A stretch of DNA of 34,383 nucleotides from a virus: IMG/VR virus record IMGVR_UViG_3300025853_000313, positions 1 through 34,383 of that record; one strand, 5' to 3'. Both the position numbers and the translations under genes were made by a program. Every line of letters begins with the position of its first letter. Position 1 is the stretch's first letter. Positions 2,109 to 9,411 of the stretch are shown piece by piece. Under the pieces are notes generated by a model that was not told where the DNA came from, searched no databases, and worked only from the letters and a program-made list of their open reading frames with translations.

Positions 2109-3179
2109 ATGGCAAGTACATATACAAGTAGATTCAAATTAGAAAAGATGGAAACAGGGGCTAACGCCAATACCTGGGGTACAAATACCAATAATAATTT
2201 GGATGTTTTAGATGCCTTTGGTGGTGGTTATTTAGCTAAATCTGTTGCAGGTTCTGCTAATATTACTCTTTCAACTGCGGACGCAGATCCAACTGCTGAG
2301 TCTTCTAATAAAGTAATTGAACTCACAGGAGCTTTAACAGGGGATATCGTAGTATTTATTCCTGCCACTGAAAGTGAATATGTTTTCTTTAATAATACAA
2401 CAGGTTCTCAAACTCTCACCATAGCTGCAACAGGTCATACTGCAAATGGTTTTGTTATAGCACAAGGAGCCTATTCACATGTTTACTGTGAGGGTTCTGC
2501 AAATTTTAAAATTTACAACTCAGTTGATAAACTAGGAGCTACAACTTTTAAAGACACTGTTACTGCTGGTTCATCAGGACAAATTATTCTTAGAACAAAT
2601 GGTGCTGTCACTGCTACAACATTTACAGGTGACGGTTCAAATTTAAGTGGAGTTGAACCTTTTCCTTCTGGAACAAAACAAGTTTTTTATCAAGCGTCTG
2701 CTCCAACAGGTTGGACACAAGACACTGCTGCTGCATTATCAGAATCTGTAATGTCAGTTGTCACAGGTTCAGGTGGAGGTACAGGTGGTTCTACTGCTTA
2801 CTTCTCTTCTTTCTTAGCTACAACTAATAAAGCTGGAACAGATACAGCAACTGTTACAGGTTCTGTTGCTGGAACAGTGGGAGGAACAACACTTTCCACG
2901 CCAACAATCGCTAGCCACACTCACGACATAGCTAAAGGTAATCCAGATCCAGATCAACCTCAACCTTCAAATCGAATTACTGGTATAGGTTTCCCTGATC
3001 GTTGGCAAAGTCAAGACCCTATTCCTGGAGGACCAGGATCAATAACTCCCACAGGTGGAGGTGGATCACACTCGCACCCCTTTAGTGGATCTTTATCAAG
3101 TGCAACTGCTGATGTCTCAGTAACTGTACCTGCTGCAAACGTTAAATATGCAAACGTAATTATAGCCGCCAAAGATTAA
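2109..3179 (+). CDS. Tail fibre / collar-domain protein
   Basis: 356 residues, SD AGAGAGG upstream. The N-terminus (YTSRFKLEKMETGANANTWG) is the conserved virion-anchoring start of many phage tail fibres. A beta-rich middle follows, with the TTFTGDGSNLSGV motif near residues 168-180, typical of fibre shafts. The C-terminal part (PSGTKQVFYQASAPTGWTQD) matches the tail-collar fold, and it ends with His motifs (ASHTHDI, GSHSHPF) like the metal-binding histidines of such fibre tips, then ANVKYANVIIAAKD. It should bind the host surface. The gene overlaps the next start as TAATG, so translation is probably coupled. Confidence 0.85.
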   Translation: MASTYTSRFKLEKMETGANANTWGTNTNNNLDVLDAFGGGYLAKSVAGSANITLSTADADPTAESSNKVIELTGALTGDIVVFIPATESEYVFFNNTTGSQTLTIAATGHTANGFVIAQGAYSHVYCEGSANFKIYNSVDKLGATTFKDTVTAGSSGQIILRTNGAVTATTFTGDGSNLSGVEPFPSGTKQVFYQASAPTGWTQDTAAALSESVMSVVTGSGGGTGGSTAYFSSFLATTNKAGTDTATVTGSVAGTVGGTTLSTPTIASHTHDIAKGNPDPDQPQPSNRITGIGFPDRWQSQDPIPGGPGSITPTGGGGSHSHPFSGSLSSATADVSVTVPAANVKYANVIIAAKD

Positions 3180-3640
3180 TGCCCATATTCGACCCTGACG
3201 GTAAATGTCCGTTACTCAACAAAAAATGTATTAAACATCAATGTGTTTGGTACAACATGCTTCAAGGCAAACACCCTCAAACAGGTTTGGATGTACAAGA
3301 GTGGGGATGTTCTATAGCTTGGCTTCCTTTACTTCTTGTAGAAAATTCAGCAAAAACGGCAGGAGTTCAAGCAGCAACCGAATCTTTTAGAAATGAAATG
3401 GTCAAAGGTCAAAATGTTATGAATAACATTTTAGCTGCTCAACCTCAAACAAGAAAAGAAATGCAAAATATAACTAGTCTTTTCGGAAAAATAGGAGATC
3501 ATCAAAAAGCCCTTGAAGAAAAAAATACAAAAGGTGAAGATGAAACCATTAGACAATTAAGTAATAATAAGATAAAAGTAAAGAAGGAAAAAAAGGTAAA
3601 AAAAGATGGCAACAACCGTAAACAACACAACCGTAAATAG
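3179..3640 (+). CDS. Conserved Cys-containing phage protein
   Basis: 153 residues, start overlapping the fibre stop (TAATG). The N-terminal third has four cysteines in CPLLNKKCIKHQCVWY and a later EWGCSIAWLP, which look metal- or disulfide-related; after it come a helical region (TESFRNEMVKGQNVMNNIL) and a very basic Lys-rich tail. I recall similar 'CPLLNK.C..H.C.WY' proteins next to fibre genes in marine phages, with no known function. The basic tail is encoded by an A-rich stretch that overlaps the next gene by 35 bases. Possible roles include fibre chaperone or minor virion protein; unproven. Confidence 0.7.
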   Translation: MPIFDPDGKCPLLNKKCIKHQCVWYNMLQGKHPQTGLDVQEWGCSIAWLPLLLVENSAKTAGVQAATESFRNEMVKGQNVMNNILAAQPQTRKEMQNITSLFGKIGDHQKALEEKNTKGEDETIRQLSNNKIKVKKEKKVKKDGNNRKQHNRK

Positions 3641-4034
3641 TAGAATTACTATAATTTTTGACTCTAGAGGAGCATTAGATGGTGATGGACCCGCTAAAGG
3701 CACAGGTAACACTGAATCCGATGTTTACCTCGATAGTAAAGTACACTTAAATGTAAGATCTCATACTGAAATAGATTCTGGTATTCATGCTTTACAGTGG
3801 GATGCTACGACAAACACAGGTGAAATTGAGTACACAAATAATAATGACAATCTTGCAATATCCTCCTTTCCTCAGTGGGCAACAAATGTTGTAATAAGAT
3901 GTGAAGCAAATGATACTTATACAACAACATATGATGGTCATGCTGATGCTGGTGCAGAAGATGATTCCGCAGCGGTGACAGCAGCAACTACAGCTAGGAA
4001 TAACTACCTATCTGCACACAGTATTACTTACTAA
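3606..4034 (+). CDS. Hypothetical protein, possible virion component
   Basis: 142 residues, starting inside the Lys-rich end of the upstream gene (35-base overlap) with an AAGGTAAAAAAAG region as weak SD. Thr/Asn-rich N-terminus, then alternating strands, and a C-terminal helix with a DAGAEDDSAAVTAATTARNN segment. Nothing recognisable as an enzyme. Its composition matches the other small virion proteins here. A 60-residue minus-strand frame inside it is a shadow. Confidence 0.6.
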   Translation: MATTVNNTTVNSRITIIFDSRGALDGDGPAKGTGNTESDVYLDSKVHLNVRSHTEIDSGIHALQWDATTNTGEIEYTNNNDNLAISSFPQWATNVVIRCEANDTYTTTYDGHADAGAEDDSAAVTAATTARNNYLSAHSITY

Positions 4035-4056: not shown

Positions 4057-4602
4057 ATGAAAGAATATATTTTAGAAGTCAAAAAAATAATACCTCAAAA
4101 TTTTTGTAAAAAAATTATCTCCTATTTTGATAACGATTATATTGATGCGGGCACTGTTGGAAAAGGTGTGGATAAAGATATAAGAAATTGTGTAACTCGA
4201 TCTTTATTAGACGCTAAATCATTCGGAGAAAAAATTTGTTTAAATGCAGTGAAAGAAAAAATATTTCAATGTGTTGATCATTATAAAAATAATAATTCTA
4301 TTAACATAGATAAAATATCTCAACTTGACATACTTAGATACGATGCAAACAAATACAAAGCAGGTTATGATTTTCACAAAGATTTTGGTGCTAAAGTAAC
4401 AGAGAGACATCTGTCTATTTCTATTTGTTTAAACAACGAGTATGAAGGTGGAGAATTTGTTTTTGATATTCCAGGTGGGCATCATATTGTGCCACAAAAT
4501 GTAGGTGACGCAGTTATATTTCCGTCTAATTTTATGTTTCCTCATCAAGTAAATAAAATAACAAAAGGAACACGTTATGCCTTGATAGCGTGGGTAATAT
4601 AA
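4057..4602 (+). CDS. 2-oxoglutarate/Fe(II)-dependent oxygenase 1
   Basis: 181 residues, about the size of a stand-alone prolyl-4-hydroxylase-type double-stranded beta-helix domain. The full ligand set is visible: H107-x-D109 (FHKDF), a distal H163 (FPHQV) and R173 (KGTRYALIAW), the usual 2OG carboxylate-binding Arg ten residues later. A conserved LSISICLNNEYEGGEFVF stretch lies between them. It should hydroxylate or oxidise a substrate using O2 and 2OG, releasing CO2 and succinate. The substrate is unknown. It is first in a run of similar genes, and the next start follows its stop directly. Confidence 0.85.
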   Translation: MKEYILEVKKIIPQNFCKKIISYFDNDYIDAGTVGKGVDKDIRNCVTRSLLDAKSFGEKICLNAVKEKIFQCVDHYKNNNSINIDKISQLDILRYDANKYKAGYDFHKDFGAKVTERHLSISICLNNEYEGGEFVFDIPGGHHIVPQNVGDAVIFPSNFMFPHQVNKITKGTRYALIAWVI

Positions 4603-5199
4603 ATGGAACCAATTTTTATAAAAGAATTTTTACCAAAACAAATTTTAAATTTAGCTTATTCTTACTCAATTATAAAATATTCAAATATGAAAAAATTTAA
4701 TGTTGATCGTCAAACACAATCATTAATATCTGAACATAGTGATTTTCTTATGGAAACGCTATTAGATGCTAGTGTTCCTGTTATAGAACAAAATGTTGGA
4801 AAAAAATTATGGCCAACATACTCTTTCTTTAGAATTTATGACAAAGGCTCAGATTTAAAAATTCACAAAGATAGAGAATCTTGTGAATATACGGTGGCTT
4901 TATGTTTAGGAGCAGATCCTATAGATCAACCTTATGAAATATTTGTTGGAGAAGAGGATGAGAATTCTGATTATAAATATTATAATAGAAAAGAAGAAGT
5001 GAAAAGGTGTAGAATTGAACATAAGTTTCCAATGATTCCTAACAATGCAGTAATATTCAAAGGGATGGAGAAAATTCACTGGAGAGAAATGTGCACTCAT
5101 GATCATTTTATAACAGTATTTCTACACTATGTTGATCAAGACGGACCATACAAAGAATTTAAGTTTGATAAAAGACCTATGTTAGGATTTAAAATCTAA
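4603..5199 (+). CDS. 2-oxoglutarate/Fe(II)-dependent oxygenase 2
   Basis: 198 residues, starting at the base after the previous stop. Predicted iron ligands are H88-x-D90 (IHKDRES), inside a YTVALCL strand, and H159 (KIHWREM), with R161 as a possible co-substrate contact instead of the usual Arg about ten residues on. The middle insertion (EEDENSDYKYYNRKEEVKR) is acidic then basic. Sequence similarity to the neighbouring oxygenases is low apart from the ligands, so this is not a recent tandem duplicate. Substrate unknown. Confidence 0.75.
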   Translation: MEPIFIKEFLPKQILNLAYSYSIIKYSNMKKFNVDRQTQSLISEHSDFLMETLLDASVPVIEQNVGKKLWPTYSFFRIYDKGSDLKIHKDRESCEYTVALCLGADPIDQPYEIFVGEEDENSDYKYYNRKEEVKRCRIEHKFPMIPNNAVIFKGMEKIHWREMCTHDHFITVFLHYVDQDGPYKEFKFDKRPMLGFKI

Positions 5200-5224
5200 G
5201 TATTGCATTAAGGAGAAAATGTAG

Positions 5225-5707
5225 TTGTTACAAGTTTTAGAAAATAAGATAGAAGAAAATATTGTAGATAAATTTTTACACACATTAGATGTGTTTAAAG
5301 ATTTAAGACCAGATTTGAATCGTTCTTTACTTCCAAATCATTCTTGTGTAAATGGCTATCACACAGGAAATATACTTAAATTTAATTTTACTGTTAAAAT
5401 GGTTAACGAAATTTTAGATAAAATTCCTTATGGGGATACAGTTTTACATCATGTGCATTTAATTCATTTTTATGAGAGTGGTTATGAGAAAGCTCATGAT
5501 CATAAACAAACGGAAGATTTTTCTTTTATCTTATATTTATCAAACTCAGAAGACGGACATACTTGTTTTAAATTAAAAGAAGAATTGTACAAAGTAAAAC
5601 CTGAAAAGGGAAAGATAATTTTTTTTCCTTCTGATATTTGGCATTGGGGAGAACCTAGTTCTGGTAATAAAAAAATTGCAGTAGGAGCATTATCTAGAAA
5701 GACATAA
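5225..5707 (+). CDS. Oxygenase-like double-stranded beta-helix protein 3 (TTG start)
   Basis: 160 residues. AAGGAG (5210-5215) is followed by ATG TAG TTG in one frame; the ATG at 5219 is closed at once by amber TAG, so the start must be TTG at 5225, nine bases after the SD. The fold pattern fits a cupin/2OG oxygenase: HLIHFYESGYEKAHDHKQTE, then FSFILYLSN, then IIFFPSDIWHWGEP with distal H140 and a basic residue at K149/K150. The first ligand motif reads H91-D92-H93, not H-x-D. It may bind iron with an altered set or use E97/D98. Enzymatic activity is less certain than for neighbours 1, 2 and 5. Confidence 0.65.
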   Translation: MLQVLENKIEENIVDKFLHTLDVFKDLRPDLNRSLLPNHSCVNGYHTGNILKFNFTVKMVNEILDKIPYGDTVLHHVHLIHFYESGYEKAHDHKQTEDFSFILYLSNSEDGHTCFKLKEELYKVKPEKGKIIFFPSDIWHWGEPSSGNKKIAVGALSRKT

Positions 5708-6214
5708 ATGAATTTTATGGAAAATAAATATATATTTAAAAGTAAGGTAAAAAATCATCAAGAGATTAAAGAAAAACTTTTACAGCAGATAGCTTTGATA
5801 CCTCAAAATCCGTATAAAGTGGAAACCAATGATATTCTGCACACAGATTGGAATCTTCCCAAAACAATGCATCGAGAATATAAAAATTTGTTTATAGAAA
5901 CAATTAGTGATCACTTGGTAAGCATGTGCCATGCATTGAATGTTAATAGGTACATTGTAGGTAATTTTTGGTTTCAACAATATGGTCAAAATAATAGGCA
6001 TGGATGGCATACTCATCCTGGTTCAAATTTTGCTAATGTTTATTTTGTGGAATGTTCAAAGGGTGCAAGCACTAAATTTAAACATTTTACCGAAGATTGT
6101 GAAGAGGGGGACATTATAAGTTTCCCTGCTTTTTTACCACACATGTCACCACCCATTGAGGATAATAATAGAAAAACTGTAATTGCATTTAATACAGATT
6201 TTCCTACAGAATAG
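5708..6214 (+). CDS. 2OG-Fe(II) oxygenase-like protein 4 (2OG-FeII_Oxy_5 type)
   Basis: 168 residues, starting next to the previous stop (the second ATG at residue 4 is also possible). The core reads FWFQQYGQNNRHGWHTHPGS, then ANVYFVE, then GDIISFPAFLPHMSPP and a basic NNRKTVIAFN. This matches the pattern I know for the 2OG-FeII_Oxy_5 family, which has an HxH-type motif; here H101-x-H103, distal H145 and R155. It would belong to the same cassette as the other oxygenases. Substrate unknown; no search was possible. Confidence 0.7.
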   Translation: MNFMENKYIFKSKVKNHQEIKEKLLQQIALIPQNPYKVETNDILHTDWNLPKTMHREYKNLFIETISDHLVSMCHALNVNRYIVGNFWFQQYGQNNRHGWHTHPGSNFANVYFVECSKGASTKFKHFTEDCEEGDIISFPAFLPHMSPPIEDNNRKTVIAFNTDFPTE

Positions 6215-6222
6215 AGGAACAA

Positions 6223-7041
6223 ATGATTAAACCAGAAGAACTAAAAGATCAAAACTTTAAATTATTTTTAGGGATGCCAATGTATGGTGGCATGCTTACG
6301 GAACCGACTTTACATGGCTTGTTGGAGTTACAGTCTTGGACTCAAGCTAACAATGTTGCAATGAGAATACAAACAATGGGTAATGAAAGTTTAATTACTC
6401 GTGCTCGAAATACCATAGTCTCCATGATGATGGATCAACAAGATTTTGTTGCTACACATCTTTTATTCATAGATGCTGACATAGGTTTTACTTGGAAAAA
6501 TATTGAACGATTACTTTGTGTAGATAAAGATATAGCTTGTGGAATTTATCCCAGAAAACATTTATACCTTGAAAAGATTAAAGACATTTTAAAAGAAAAC
6601 CCTGACGCACAACCTGATGAAATAGAAGCTAAAGCCTTAGGATATAATGTAAATTTTGATGACCCTTTAAATTTAAAAGGTGAGGGAGGTTTTTTTCCTG
6701 TGCAAGAAGCAGCCACAGGTATGATGTTAGTTAAAAGAAAAGTATTTAGAACTATGATGAAAAAGTTTCCTGAAAGAAAATATGAGTCGGATCAAATTGT
6801 TAATGGTGGATCTTATAAGTCTGATAACTGTTATGATTTATTCGCTGTTGGACCTTACAATACGAAAACAAAAGAAGGTCAACCACAAATAAGATATTTA
6901 TCTGAAGATTACTACTTCTCTCGTTTATGGCAAGAGTGTGGTGGTGAAATTTGGGCTGACTTAGCTATGCCTTTAACTCACTTTGGTAATAGAGCCTTTA
7001 AAGGTCATGTTGGGTCTTTAGTAGCTAAAAAAGATGAGTAA
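6223..7041 (+). CDS. GT-A fold glycosyltransferase
   Basis: 272 residues, SD AGAGGA just upstream. An N-terminal strand (KLFLGMPMYGG) opens a Rossmann-like nucleotide-sugar domain; the metal-binding D84-A-D86 (LLFIDADIGF) follows, then AATGMMLVKR, and S227-E-D (LSEDYYFSRLW), the usual place of a catalytic acid, and H253 (LTHFGN). This order is that of family-2-like GT-A transferases and occurs in a number of marine phages. It should transfer a sugar from a nucleotide donor; acceptor unknown. It sits inside the oxygenase cassette and overlaps the last oxygenase by 8 bases, so they are probably translated together. Confidence 0.8.
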   Translation: MIKPEELKDQNFKLFLGMPMYGGMLTEPTLHGLLELQSWTQANNVAMRIQTMGNESLITRARNTIVSMMMDQQDFVATHLLFIDADIGFTWKNIERLLCVDKDIACGIYPRKHLYLEKIKDILKENPDAQPDEIEAKALGYNVNFDDPLNLKGEGGFFPVQEAATGMMLVKRKVFRTMMKKFPERKYESDQIVNGGSYKSDNCYDLFAVGPYNTKTKEGQPQIRYLSEDYYFSRLWQECGGEIWADLAMPLTHFGNRAFKGHVGSLVAKKDE

Positions 7042-7546
7042 AAATATTAAGATAATTTATAATTTTTTTGATTTTCCAAATCTCATATATGAGAATTGTA
7101 AAAAGTTAAATTTTTATACATTAGAGGAAATGAATAAAATTATTCCAGGAAAATATGATTGGCCTGGTAAACGAACACTTTCTTTTGAAAAAGAAAATCC
7201 TTTTTTACATTTACATATTTTATCCTACCTTAAACTAAATGGAATAGATGTAGATAAATACAAAAGAATAGTCACATATGCTCATATTAGATTAGCCGAA
7301 GATGAAGAAAAAGATTGGATACATAGAGATAATTGTGACACAGCCTTAATTTATCTTTCTAATACTAACCTAGATTCGGGAACTCAATTTCTTGCTGATA
7401 ATCAAGAAAATGAAATATCAAAAGCAAATTTCGTACAAAATACTTGTGTGTATTTTGAAAAAGGCTTGTATCACACTTCTTTTGGTAATCATGGATATAG
7501 TATTGAAGATGCACGTATGACGCTTAATATTTTTATGTTCAAATAA
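7034..7546 (+). CDS. 2-oxoglutarate/Fe(II)-dependent oxygenase 5
   Basis: 170 residues, start overlapping the glycosyltransferase end by 8 bases. Ligands are H97-x-D99 (DWIHRDNCD), then TALIYLSNTNLDSGTQFL, distal H147 (GLYHTSFGN) and R161 (DARMTLNIFMFK), a complete iron/2OG set with the Arg 14 residues after the distal His. It is close in pattern to other phage 2OG oxygenases that hydroxylate free or peptide-linked substrates, but the substrate cannot be read. It closes the cassette; the next gene is structural. Confidence 0.8.
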   Translation: MSKNIKIIYNFFDFPNLIYENCKKLNFYTLEEMNKIIPGKYDWPGKRTLSFEKENPFLHLHILSYLKLNGIDVDKYKRIVTYAHIRLAEDEEKDWIHRDNCDTALIYLSNTNLDSGTQFLADNQENEISKANFVQNTCVYFEKGLYHTSFGNHGYSIEDARMTLNIFMFK

Positions 7547-7584: not shown

Positions 7585-9411
7585 ATGCCATTAGTAAATT
7601 TTAGACCAGCACCAGGTATCAATAAAGAAGTCACCGACTACACAGGCGAAGGCAAGTGGACAGATGGGGATAACGTACGTTTTTTTCAAGGATTACCACA
7701 GAAAATTAAAGGATGGGAGAAGTTTATCTCCACAACCTTGGTGGGTGTCGCTCGTGATCAACATGCTTGGGTAGCCTTAGATGGCACACGATACAACGCT
7801 GTTGGCACTGATAGAAAGCTTTATGTTATAGAAGAAGGACTAGCTTATGACATTACCCCTATTAGAGAAACACAAGCTTTAACTAATCCCTTTACTACAA
7901 ACGCAACAACCTCAGTAGTAGTAACCGATACTGCGCATGGAGCAGCGAAAGGTGACTTTGTTACTTTTGATTCTTTCTCAGCTATTGATGGCTTGGATAT
8001 GAATAAAGAATTTGAAGTTACATCAGTAGCTAATAACAATGCTTATGTTGTAACAACAACCGCTGCTGCCTCAGGATCAACAGCAAGTGGTGGTGGATCA
8101 GGCAATGCTAAATATCAAATTACTATTGGTCCTGAGATATCTACTTCAGCTTTTGGTTGGGGCACTGACTCATGGGGCTCTAGTACATGGGGCACTCCTT
8201 CTGCTGCTTCTAATGTAACTTTGGAAGCGAGACAATGGTCGCTAGATAATTTTGGAGAAGATTTAATTGCAACAGTTTTAAATGGTGGTGCCTTCAGGTG
8301 GGACACATCAACAGGTGTAAGCACAAGAGCCGCTGCTATATCAGGTGCACCAACCGCATCAAGAATAAGTTTAGTTTCAACGCCTGATAGACATTTACTT
8401 TTTATGGGAACAGAAAACACAATTGGAACTGTAAGTTCACAAGATGACTTACTAATAAGATTTTCGGATCAAGAAGATATTACTACGTATCAACCTACAG
8501 CAGAAAATACTGCTGGCTCATTAAGAATTGCTGACGGATCACGGATCGTGGCAGCAGAGCGATCTAGAGGTCAAATACTTGTATGGACAGATACATCATT
8601 ACACTCAATGCAGTTTATTGGTCCTCCTTTTACTTTTGGTTTACGACAATTAGGTCAAAACTGTGGAATCATTGGTAGTCACGCAGGACTTGATTTAAAC
8701 GGTGTTGCCTATTGGATGTCGCAAGATTCTTTTTATCTGTTTGATGGTACAGTCAAAAAATTACCGTGTACCGTGGAACAGTTTGTTTTTGACAATATTA
8801 ATATAACAGGATCTGAAAATGCTTTTGTAGGTCATAATGGCGAGTACAATGAAGTATTATGGTTTTACCCAAGAACAGGATCTGACACAATTAACGCAGT
8901 AGTGGCTTATAACTATCTAGAGCAAACTTGGTGGACAGGAACACTAGATAGAACAACTTGGATTGATAGAGAAGTCTATGATAATCCTGTAGCCTCGGAC
9001 TACTTACCAACGACCACGGCCAACAATGAAGTTATCTCTGGTTTAACTGATGGTGCGACTCAAATGTTTTTACATGAGACAGGAAATAATGCAGACGGTG
9101 AAGCCATGACTGCTTTTGTGAAATCAGGATCTGTAGAAATAGGTGAAGGTAATGATATTCTTTTTGTACAAAAACTTATACCTGATATTCAAAATCAAGA
9201 AGGTACTTTAAATATGAAATTAGAATTTAAGTATTATCCAAACAATACAACGAGCACTATTAAGACAGCGACCTTTACTGACACAACAGAGTTTGTAAGC
9301 TTACGAGGAAGAGGTAGAGAATTCACAGTCAATGTTGTCTCTAATACAACAGGCACCGCTTGGAGATTAGGAACACAACGTTTTGATATTCAACCCGATG
9401 GTAGAAGATAA
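7585..9411 (+). CDS. Large tail nozzle / stabilisation-type virion protein
   Basis: 608 residues. The N-terminus (NFRPAPGINKEVTDYTGEGK, then DGDNVRFFQGLPQKIKGWE) is a start I recognise from conserved marine podovirus structural proteins that probably form the tail nozzle, as the P22 gp10 stabilisation protein does. The centre is beta-rich with propeller-like repeats (RSRGQILVWTDTSLHSMQFI; VAYWMSQDSFYLFDG). A WG triad (GWGTDSWGSSTWG) lies near residues 190-202 and recalls the one in the protein at 1072. A 101-residue minus-strand frame at 8115-8420 is a shadow. Virion role fairly certain; nozzle assignment moderate. Confidence 0.7.
   Translation: MPLVNFRPAPGINKEVTDYTGEGKWTDGDNVRFFQGLPQKIKGWEKFISTTLVGVARDQHAWVALDGTRYNAVGTDRKLYVIEEGLAYDITPIRETQALTNPFTTNATTSVVVTDTAHGAAKGDFVTFDSFSAIDGLDMNKEFEVTSVANNNAYVVTTTAAASGSTASGGGSGNAKYQITIGPEISTSAFGWGTDSWGSSTWGTPSAASNVTLEARQWSLDNFGEDLIATVLNGGAFRWDTSTGVSTRAAAISGAPTASRISLVSTPDRHLLFMGTENTIGTVSSQDDLLIRFSDQEDITTYQPTAENTAGSLRIADGSRIVAAERSRGQILVWTDTSLHSMQFIGPPFTFGLRQLGQNCGIIGSHAGLDLNGVAYWMSQDSFYLFDGTVKKLPCTVEQFVFDNINITGSENAFVGHNGEYNEVLWFYPRTGSDTINAVVAYNYLEQTWWTGTLDRTTWIDREVYDNPVASDYLPTTTANNEVISGLTDGATQMFLHETGNNADGEAMTAFVKSGSVEIGEGNDILFVQKLIPDIQNQEGTLNMKLEFKYYPNNTTSTIKTATFTDTTEFVSLRGRGREFTVNVVSNTTGTAWRLGTQRFDIQPDGRR

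Follow-up and report, generated by a model that had tools for sequence, protein, structure and literature searches.

A pair of 2-oxoglutarate oxygenase-fold genes sorts with fibre-tip type in a marine podovirus lineage and may belong to a receptor-binding module

Introduction

Genes for 2-oxoglutarate (2OG)/Fe(II) oxygenases have been known in large numbers from cyanomyoviruses since 2010 (PMC3037559) and, together with the 'ferrochelatases' of family phrog_2954, are reported to be enriched in seasonal marine phages (PMC11561400). For the HTVC023P-type pelagiphages, the report by Wittmers et al. (2022; PMC9599517) describes eight non-orthologous 2OG genes and a 'ferrochelatase' adjoining a 2OG gene, so that the co-location of the two is already published. 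Both the 2OG oxygenases and phrog_2954 have been interpreted as metabolic helpers. Here we analyze a related block of genes at positions 4057-7546 of IMG/VR record IMGVR_UViG_3300025853_000313, a linear virus DNA of marine podovirus type; "the window" denotes this whole stretch of 34,383 bases. The block encodes five dissimilar proteins of the 2OG/Fe(II)-oxygenase fold, OX1 to OX5, and a probable glycosyltransferase, GT. We observed that the OX1-OX2 pair sorts with the type of the fibre tip encoded upstream, whereas oxygenases beyond GT do not, and that in other phages, among them the myovirus HTVC008M, glycine-rich adhesin genes still adjoin the pair; both observations are new here.

The window shares a homologous stabilization protein, a fibre and further 2OG genes with the HTVC023P-type phages HTVC023P, HTVC027P and 023Pt_psg01, and HTVC023P and 023Pt_psg01 also carry OX1/OX2 homologues. 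The order differs in HTVC023P, where the fibre comes after the block and the GT homologue follows the stabilization gene; the sections of PMC9599517 considered here treat OX2 as a ferrochelatase and do not connect the oxygenases to the fibre. HTVC008M and cyanomyoviruses (for example Syn9 gp43-gp54) likewise possess 2OG-fold genes in arrays whose last member is an OX2 homologue, and in HTVC008M the oxygenases have as neighbours an S74-type fibre, a glycine-rich protein and a MAHFA protein. These phages differ from the window in virion type and backbone; the HTVC008M oxygenases are encoded on the strand opposite the fibre, and Syn9 has no annotated fibre within the 16.5 kb examined.

Results

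All six open reading frames of the block were confirmed where the original prediction had placed them. OX1-OX4 are consecutive (4057-6214), followed by GT and then OX5:

4057..4602, + strand: OX1, prolyl-4-hydroxylase (P4H)/PKHD-like 2OG oxygenase (PF13640, 2.3e-12; phrog_61, 2e-32)
4603..5199, + strand: OX2, 2OG-oxygenase fold, named 'ferrochelatase' (phrog_2954; AlphaFold model)
5225..5707, + strand: OX3, 2OG oxygenase (PF13640, 1e-7; phrog_274, 6e-13), with a TTG start codon preceded by AAGGAG
5708..6214, + strand: OX4, 2OG-FeII_Oxy_5-type oxygenase (PF13759, 4.5e-7; phrog_81, 2e-23)
6223..7041, + strand: GT, probable GT-A-type glycosyltransferase (phrog_1574, 9e-36; phrog_34859 glycosyltransferase, 2e-4)
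7034..7546, + strand: OX5, 2OG-oxygenase fold (phrog_1644, 1e-11; phrog_274, 3e-6; AlphaFold model)

OX1, OX3 and OX4 passed the Pfam cut-offs (PF13640, PF13640 and PF13759, respectively), and a Pfam scan of OX2 and OX5 matched no 2OG family. Their AlphaFold models, with predicted local distance difference test (pLDDT) scores of 93.9 for OX2 and 90.4 for OX5, matched 2OG oxygenases in Foldseek with E values of 8e-8 and 5e-5 and aligned over nearly the whole chains to prolyl hydroxylases, with VIA Z-scores of 15.8 and 15.4, the latter to the P4H of P. putida. A double-stranded beta-helix core is thus supported in all five proteins, by Pfam for OX1, OX3 and OX4 and by the models for OX2 and OX5. 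An NCBIfam scan returned only sub-threshold PKHD and TIGR02466 matches, and a PDB sequence search with GT, OX2 and OX5 returned nothing meaningful. The PHROG labels mislead as to the fold, which goes under 'ferrochelatase', 'DNA endonuclease V' and 'minor coat protein' in these loci.

The metal-motif residues listed in the original prediction proved to be correctly positioned and conserved in homologues. The OX1 triad H107/D109/H163 is conserved at ≥90% in 30 homologues, that of OX2 (H88/D90/H159) is invariant in 42, that of OX3 (H91/H93/H140) is present in 6/6, and that of OX4 (H101/H103/H145) in 24-25/25. For OX5 (H97/D99/H147), D99, H147 and R161 are invariant in nine homologues, and a distant homologue (L021) has no first His of the triad. 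The basic residue expected to bind 2OG, ∼9-14 positions after the distal His, is R173 in OX1, K149/K150 in OX3, R155 in OX4 (kept in 15/25 homologues) and R161 in OX5. Ratios of nonsynonymous to synonymous substitution rates (dN/dS), based on pairs of OX1, OX2 and OX4 (OX3 and OX5 gave no pair), were 0.11-0.16, 0.11-0.18 and 0.12-0.18, indicating purifying selection and ruling out gene decay for these three. The original claim of five dissimilar oxygenase-like proteins beside a transferase therefore stands; it was to fall if three or more lacked a jelly-roll core, or if related phages kept only one gene and the others were decaying, and we found fold evidence for all five and constraint on the three that could be paired.

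That OX2, the phrog_2954 'ferrochelatase' partner, is itself a 2OG-fold protein according to its predicted structure is new here. Residues 1-186 of the model align to the 2OG beta-helix fold (163 aa, 3.0 Å, Z 15.8), and neither OX2 nor its phage homologues in L087 and L023 matched any Pfam family, ferrochelatase included, at E ≤ 1. Given the lack of a profile match and the whole-chain fit to a different fold, we reject a ferrochelatase identity, and the label is very probably wrong for the phage OX2 homologues in general (phrog_2954/phrog_3531 and many GenBank records). Two published ecological readings depend on this name.

The surroundings of the block belong to the tail. All genes from the fibre (2109-3179) to the stabilization protein (7585-9411) are on the + strand and tightly packed, in the order fibre, two small genes, OX1-OX4, GT, OX5, stabilization protein:

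2109..3179, + strand: tail-fibre-like protein with a type A tip (phrog_31104, 4.7e-22; phrog_12796 tail fiber, 2e-10)
3179..3640, + strand: protein 'a', Cys-containing, with 27/27 homologues located in type A loci
3606..4034, + strand: small protein 'b', with 27/27 homologues located in type A loci
7585..9411, + strand: stabilization/virion structural protein (phrog_3287, 5e-88)

A nucleotide search of the window against phage isolates gave no matches, and we used the stabilization gene, whose product is 39.6-47.9% identical to those of HTVC023P, HTVC027P, DSL-LC04 and 023Pt_psg01, as a backbone marker to find relatives, fetching 80 loci that share it. The N-terminal ∼135 aa of the fibre are conserved and the tip is exchangeable. 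Five tip types were recognized:

Type A (the window): HxH, a Pro/Asn/Gly-rich hypervariable loop, GGGGSHSH, ...ANVIIAAKD
Type B: an S74-type C-terminus; a glycine-rich protein is encoded separately, along with a MAHFAKL protein
Type C: a glycine-rich C-terminus, then a tail-fibre-assembly homologue between fibre and OX1
Type D: glycine-rich, then a long oxygenase of ∼375 aa
Type E: glycine-rich, carrying an OX5-type gene and lacking OX1-OX2

The complete type A fibres that were examined have two HxH motifs, a layout shared with the iron-binding receptor tips of the T4 gp37 type (PMC11705849), and their hypervariable loop contains 9.9% Pro versus 2.3% in the fibre body. Proteins 'a' and 'b' occur exclusively alongside type A tips; a PHROG search found no match for 'a', a family search assigned none to 'b', and 'b' is a possible fibre accessory.

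To follow tip type along the locus, we counted the changes of type needed on gene trees from 41 loci of types A-C. The OX2 tree needed two, the minimum, followed by OX1 (three), the fibre N-terminus (four), GT (five) and the stabilization protein (eight), compared with a mean of about 16 for shuffled labels. A best-hit test, in which the closest hit outside near-copies has a 0.43 chance of sharing the tip type, gave the same picture: the best hit came from the same type for 44/44 OX1 and 43/44 OX2 genes, but the figure fell to 28/46 for GT, 19/38 for oxygenases lying between GT and the stabilization gene, and 35/67 for those beyond it. The subfamily make-up of the oxygenases repeats this pattern.

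A second set of 65 loci was obtained by starting from HTVC008M, a T4-like pelagiphage, and its OX2 homologue; 61 of them are new and have OX2 called. In 44/61, OX2 has a glycine-rich or MAHFAKL adhesin gene no more than 5.5 kb away; in the other 17, the locus ends too soon on the relevant side or a MAHFAKL homologue was detected by BLAST only (L093, L127, L132). The adhesin is on the strand opposite OX2 in 14/45 loci, as it is in HTVC008M. Because proximity to the adhesin persists through inversions and across podo- and myovirus backbones, it argues for function rather than linkage alone.

Within its own lineage, the five-oxygenase block is ordinary. Fibre and stabilization gene were both present in 54 loci, the window and three isolates included; between the two, profiles built here detected 0-6 (mean 3.8) 2OG-like genes, with further ones after the stabilization gene. 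The richest locus, L028, has 11, of which seven have at least a weak Pfam 2OG match and 10/10 of those scanned match PHROG families of the 2OG fold. Clustered at 40% identity, the 391 oxygenase genes of the relatives give 56 subfamilies, of which 31 have at least three members. The block is therefore uncommon in comparison with most phages, as originally predicted, but not among its relatives. It is also AT-rich: its GC content is 29.6%, whereas the window as a whole has 37.4%, the stabilization gene 39.5% and the fibre 40.6%. The AT-richness had been taken as a sign of cargo. However, the oxygenase genes of the relatives are equally low (29.6%, n = 404, versus 39.1% for structural genes), and because low GC is general to them, it is not evidence of recent insertion.

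A search for synteny in relatives separated two kinds of genes. OX1 and OX2 are adjacent and form an almost constant pair behind the fibre, and GT belongs to the conserved core rather than to any cargo (77-98% identical across almost all relatives; 77-97% in a 26-sequence alignment); the core status of GT and the low GC shared by the relatives' oxygenases rule out a recent cargo insertion. OX3, OX4 and OX5, in contrast, are sporadic and fit the predicted cassette better, and their relatives also turn up ahead of the fibre or beyond the stabilization gene: OX3 homologues (56-73% identical) lie upstream of the fibre in L020 and after the stabilization gene in L027, OX4 homologues are mostly after the stabilization gene, and OX5 lies between GT and the stabilization protein. 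In some relatives, including HTVC027P, the block oxygenases are inverted with respect to the tail genes (L055:4657-5790 (-), L056, L085:10283-11944 (-)). The variable region of relatives also holds a carbamoyltransferase, a sulfotransferase and a methyltransferase (L074:6687-8213, L019:3469-4260, L066:14065-14679), and L066:3704-8225 has a longer insert with nucleotide-sugar-epimerase-like genes between the OX genes and GT.

The presence of GT, which has the sequence features NESLITRARN...FIDADIGF, was confirmed; its GT-A label is supported only weakly, by the weak phrog_34859 match and a match of its distant HTVC023P homologue to Anp1 at 2.7e-4, below the cut-off. Pfam and NCBIfam scans of GT itself found no match.

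As to substrates, an OX1 family profile matched structures of a PKHD hydroxylase and P4H at 4e-11 to 1e-7 and, more weakly, lysyl hydroxylase-glycosyltransferases. OX1, OX2 and OX5 have bacterial P4H/PKHD proteins (P. putida P4H 4j25, 3dkq, PiuC) among their best matches by structure or profile, although the structural matches are only about 9-15% identical and the substrate is not transferable. Bacterial OX2 relatives, about 28-37% identical and without a Pfam or NCBIfam family where scanned, lie in lasso-peptide-type clusters (L195:4568-9181, L207:7869-15289 and, in part, L164:4627-10942) with HPr-kinase-like, PqqD, Asn_synthase and Transglut_core3 genes, and adjoin non-ribosomal peptide synthetase (NRPS) genes in L173 and L191. 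They are candidate peptide-tailoring oxygenases, and the gene content of these neighbourhoods, a finding new here, points to peptide substrates. Such clusters for ribosomally synthesized and post-translationally modified peptides, for example that of Brevundimonas (L195), thus resemble the phage block in their homologous OX2-type oxygenase; they differ in being bacterial and in having cyclase and protease genes, none of which are in the phage block.

Upstream of the fibre, the protein encoded at 1072-2058 contains imperfect repeats (..TTTALGTE..) and WGxxxWG motifs and is kept beside the fibre in relatives.

Discussion

We tentatively propose, with confidence somewhat below even, that the block is part of a receptor-binding module in which OX1 and OX2 act as hydroxylases of the fibre tip or an adhesin, and OX3-OX5 and the transferases are swappable extras. 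As a dedicated pair of enzymes, which we infer to be active, OX1 and OX2 would add hydroxyl groups to side chains of the freshly synthesized tip before the virion exits the cell. In type A the modified residues would lie in the HxH-flanked Pro/Asn/Gly-rich loop; in other lineages the target would be the separate glycine-rich adhesin, and each tip type would have its own version of the pair. Glycine-rich adhesins have a precedent in Salmonella phage S16 (cited in PMC6957217). OX3, OX4 and OX5 would be exchangeable additional tailoring oxygenases, and GT, provided that it works on the same product, could add a cap to the hydroxyls so formed, as could the carbamoyl-, sulfo- and methyltransferases of relatives. 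We found no report of phage-fibre hydroxylation in the open-access literature, which is weak evidence of absence.

Several observations weigh against this proposal. The usual 2OG-binding position of OX2 carries neither Arg nor Lys; besides the triad, Y73, R77, R91 and R161 are invariant, and, judging from conservation, one of R77, R91 and R161 may replace the missing residue, or the chemistry may differ. The carbamoyl-, sulfo- and methyltransferases of relatives can cap hydroxyls or act on glycans, and are as compatible with a glycan target as with a protein one. Sorting by tip type extends to the genes between OX2 and GT (69/77), including those that are not oxygenases (38/39), from which it follows that the unit of exchange reaches from the tip to a point just short of GT and that linkage is part of the explanation. 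Fine co-divergence within type A was weak: tip distance correlated with OX1 distance at a partial rho of 0.25 (p 0.03); the correlation with OX2 distance (rho 0.20, p 0.09) was not significant.

The chief rival, which we consider unlikely, is that the enzymes modify the host surface, be it lipopolysaccharide or a glycan or lipid receptor, for example in blocking superinfection or releasing progeny. Co-segregation with tip type fits it equally well, since tip and enzymes would concern the same receptor, and so do the O-carbamoyltransferase, sulfotransferase, methyltransferase and nucleotide-sugar-epimerase-type genes in relatives and the core status of GT. Yet OX1 is closest to peptide/protein hydroxylases, the bacterial relatives of OX2 are in peptide clusters, the oxygenases come directly behind the fibre, its 'a'/'b' genes or the fibre-assembly gene, and no clear lipid- or glycan-specific oxygenase family was matched. 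We regard it as rather improbable that the pair merely hitchhikes, with the tip-to-GT segment recombining as a block between conserved flanks and co-segregating without action on the tip. The sorting of nearly all genes in that segment and the weak co-divergence within type A are what hitchhiking would produce, but the pair also stands beside an adhesin in a T4-like myovirus and other phages despite strand inversions, and is nearly universal where the other genes between OX2 and GT are sporadic.

Two further readings place the target elsewhere. In predicted phage base-modification systems, glycosyltransferase and oxygenase genes lie side by side. Hypermodification of DNA bases of the TET/JBP-plus-glycosyltransferase type would account for the same adjacency in the block, and DNA hypermodification genes are reported elsewhere in HTVC023P-type phages (PMC9599517); we nevertheless judge it highly improbable, given that no Tet_JBP profile matched any of OX1-OX5 at E ≤ 1, that the families are P4H/PKHD and Oxy_5-like, and that the genes are in a tail block and sort with the fibre tip. 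Of the fibre, nucleotide or lipid pathway originally suggested, the fibre branch thus gained from the co-segregation and from the adhesins adjoining the pair in unrelated phages, and the nucleotide branch found no support. An auxiliary role in host metabolism, in which the oxygenases shift 2OG/nitrogen status or act with the 'ferrochelatase' in iron/haem metabolism during infection, has been proposed for cyanophages (PMC3037559) and for pelagiphages (PMC9599517), and marine phages are indeed rich in 2OG genes. We consider this role very unlikely for the block: OX2 is not a ferrochelatase by profile or predicted fold, and 2OG consumption leaves the many dissimilar enzymes and the tie to tip type unexplained.

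Beyond this locus, marine phages may possess a dedicated adhesin-maturation system, with its own peptide-hydroxylase pair for each tip type and swappable oxygenases and transferases added, such that receptor specificity comes partly from enzymatic tailoring; we hold this wider idea a little more loosely than the proposal for the block. If true, a large class of supposed auxiliary metabolic genes would become host-recognition genes, the haem/iron reading would fall, and the role of many phage 2OG oxygenases would become testable by virion mass spectrometry on cultured pelagiphages.

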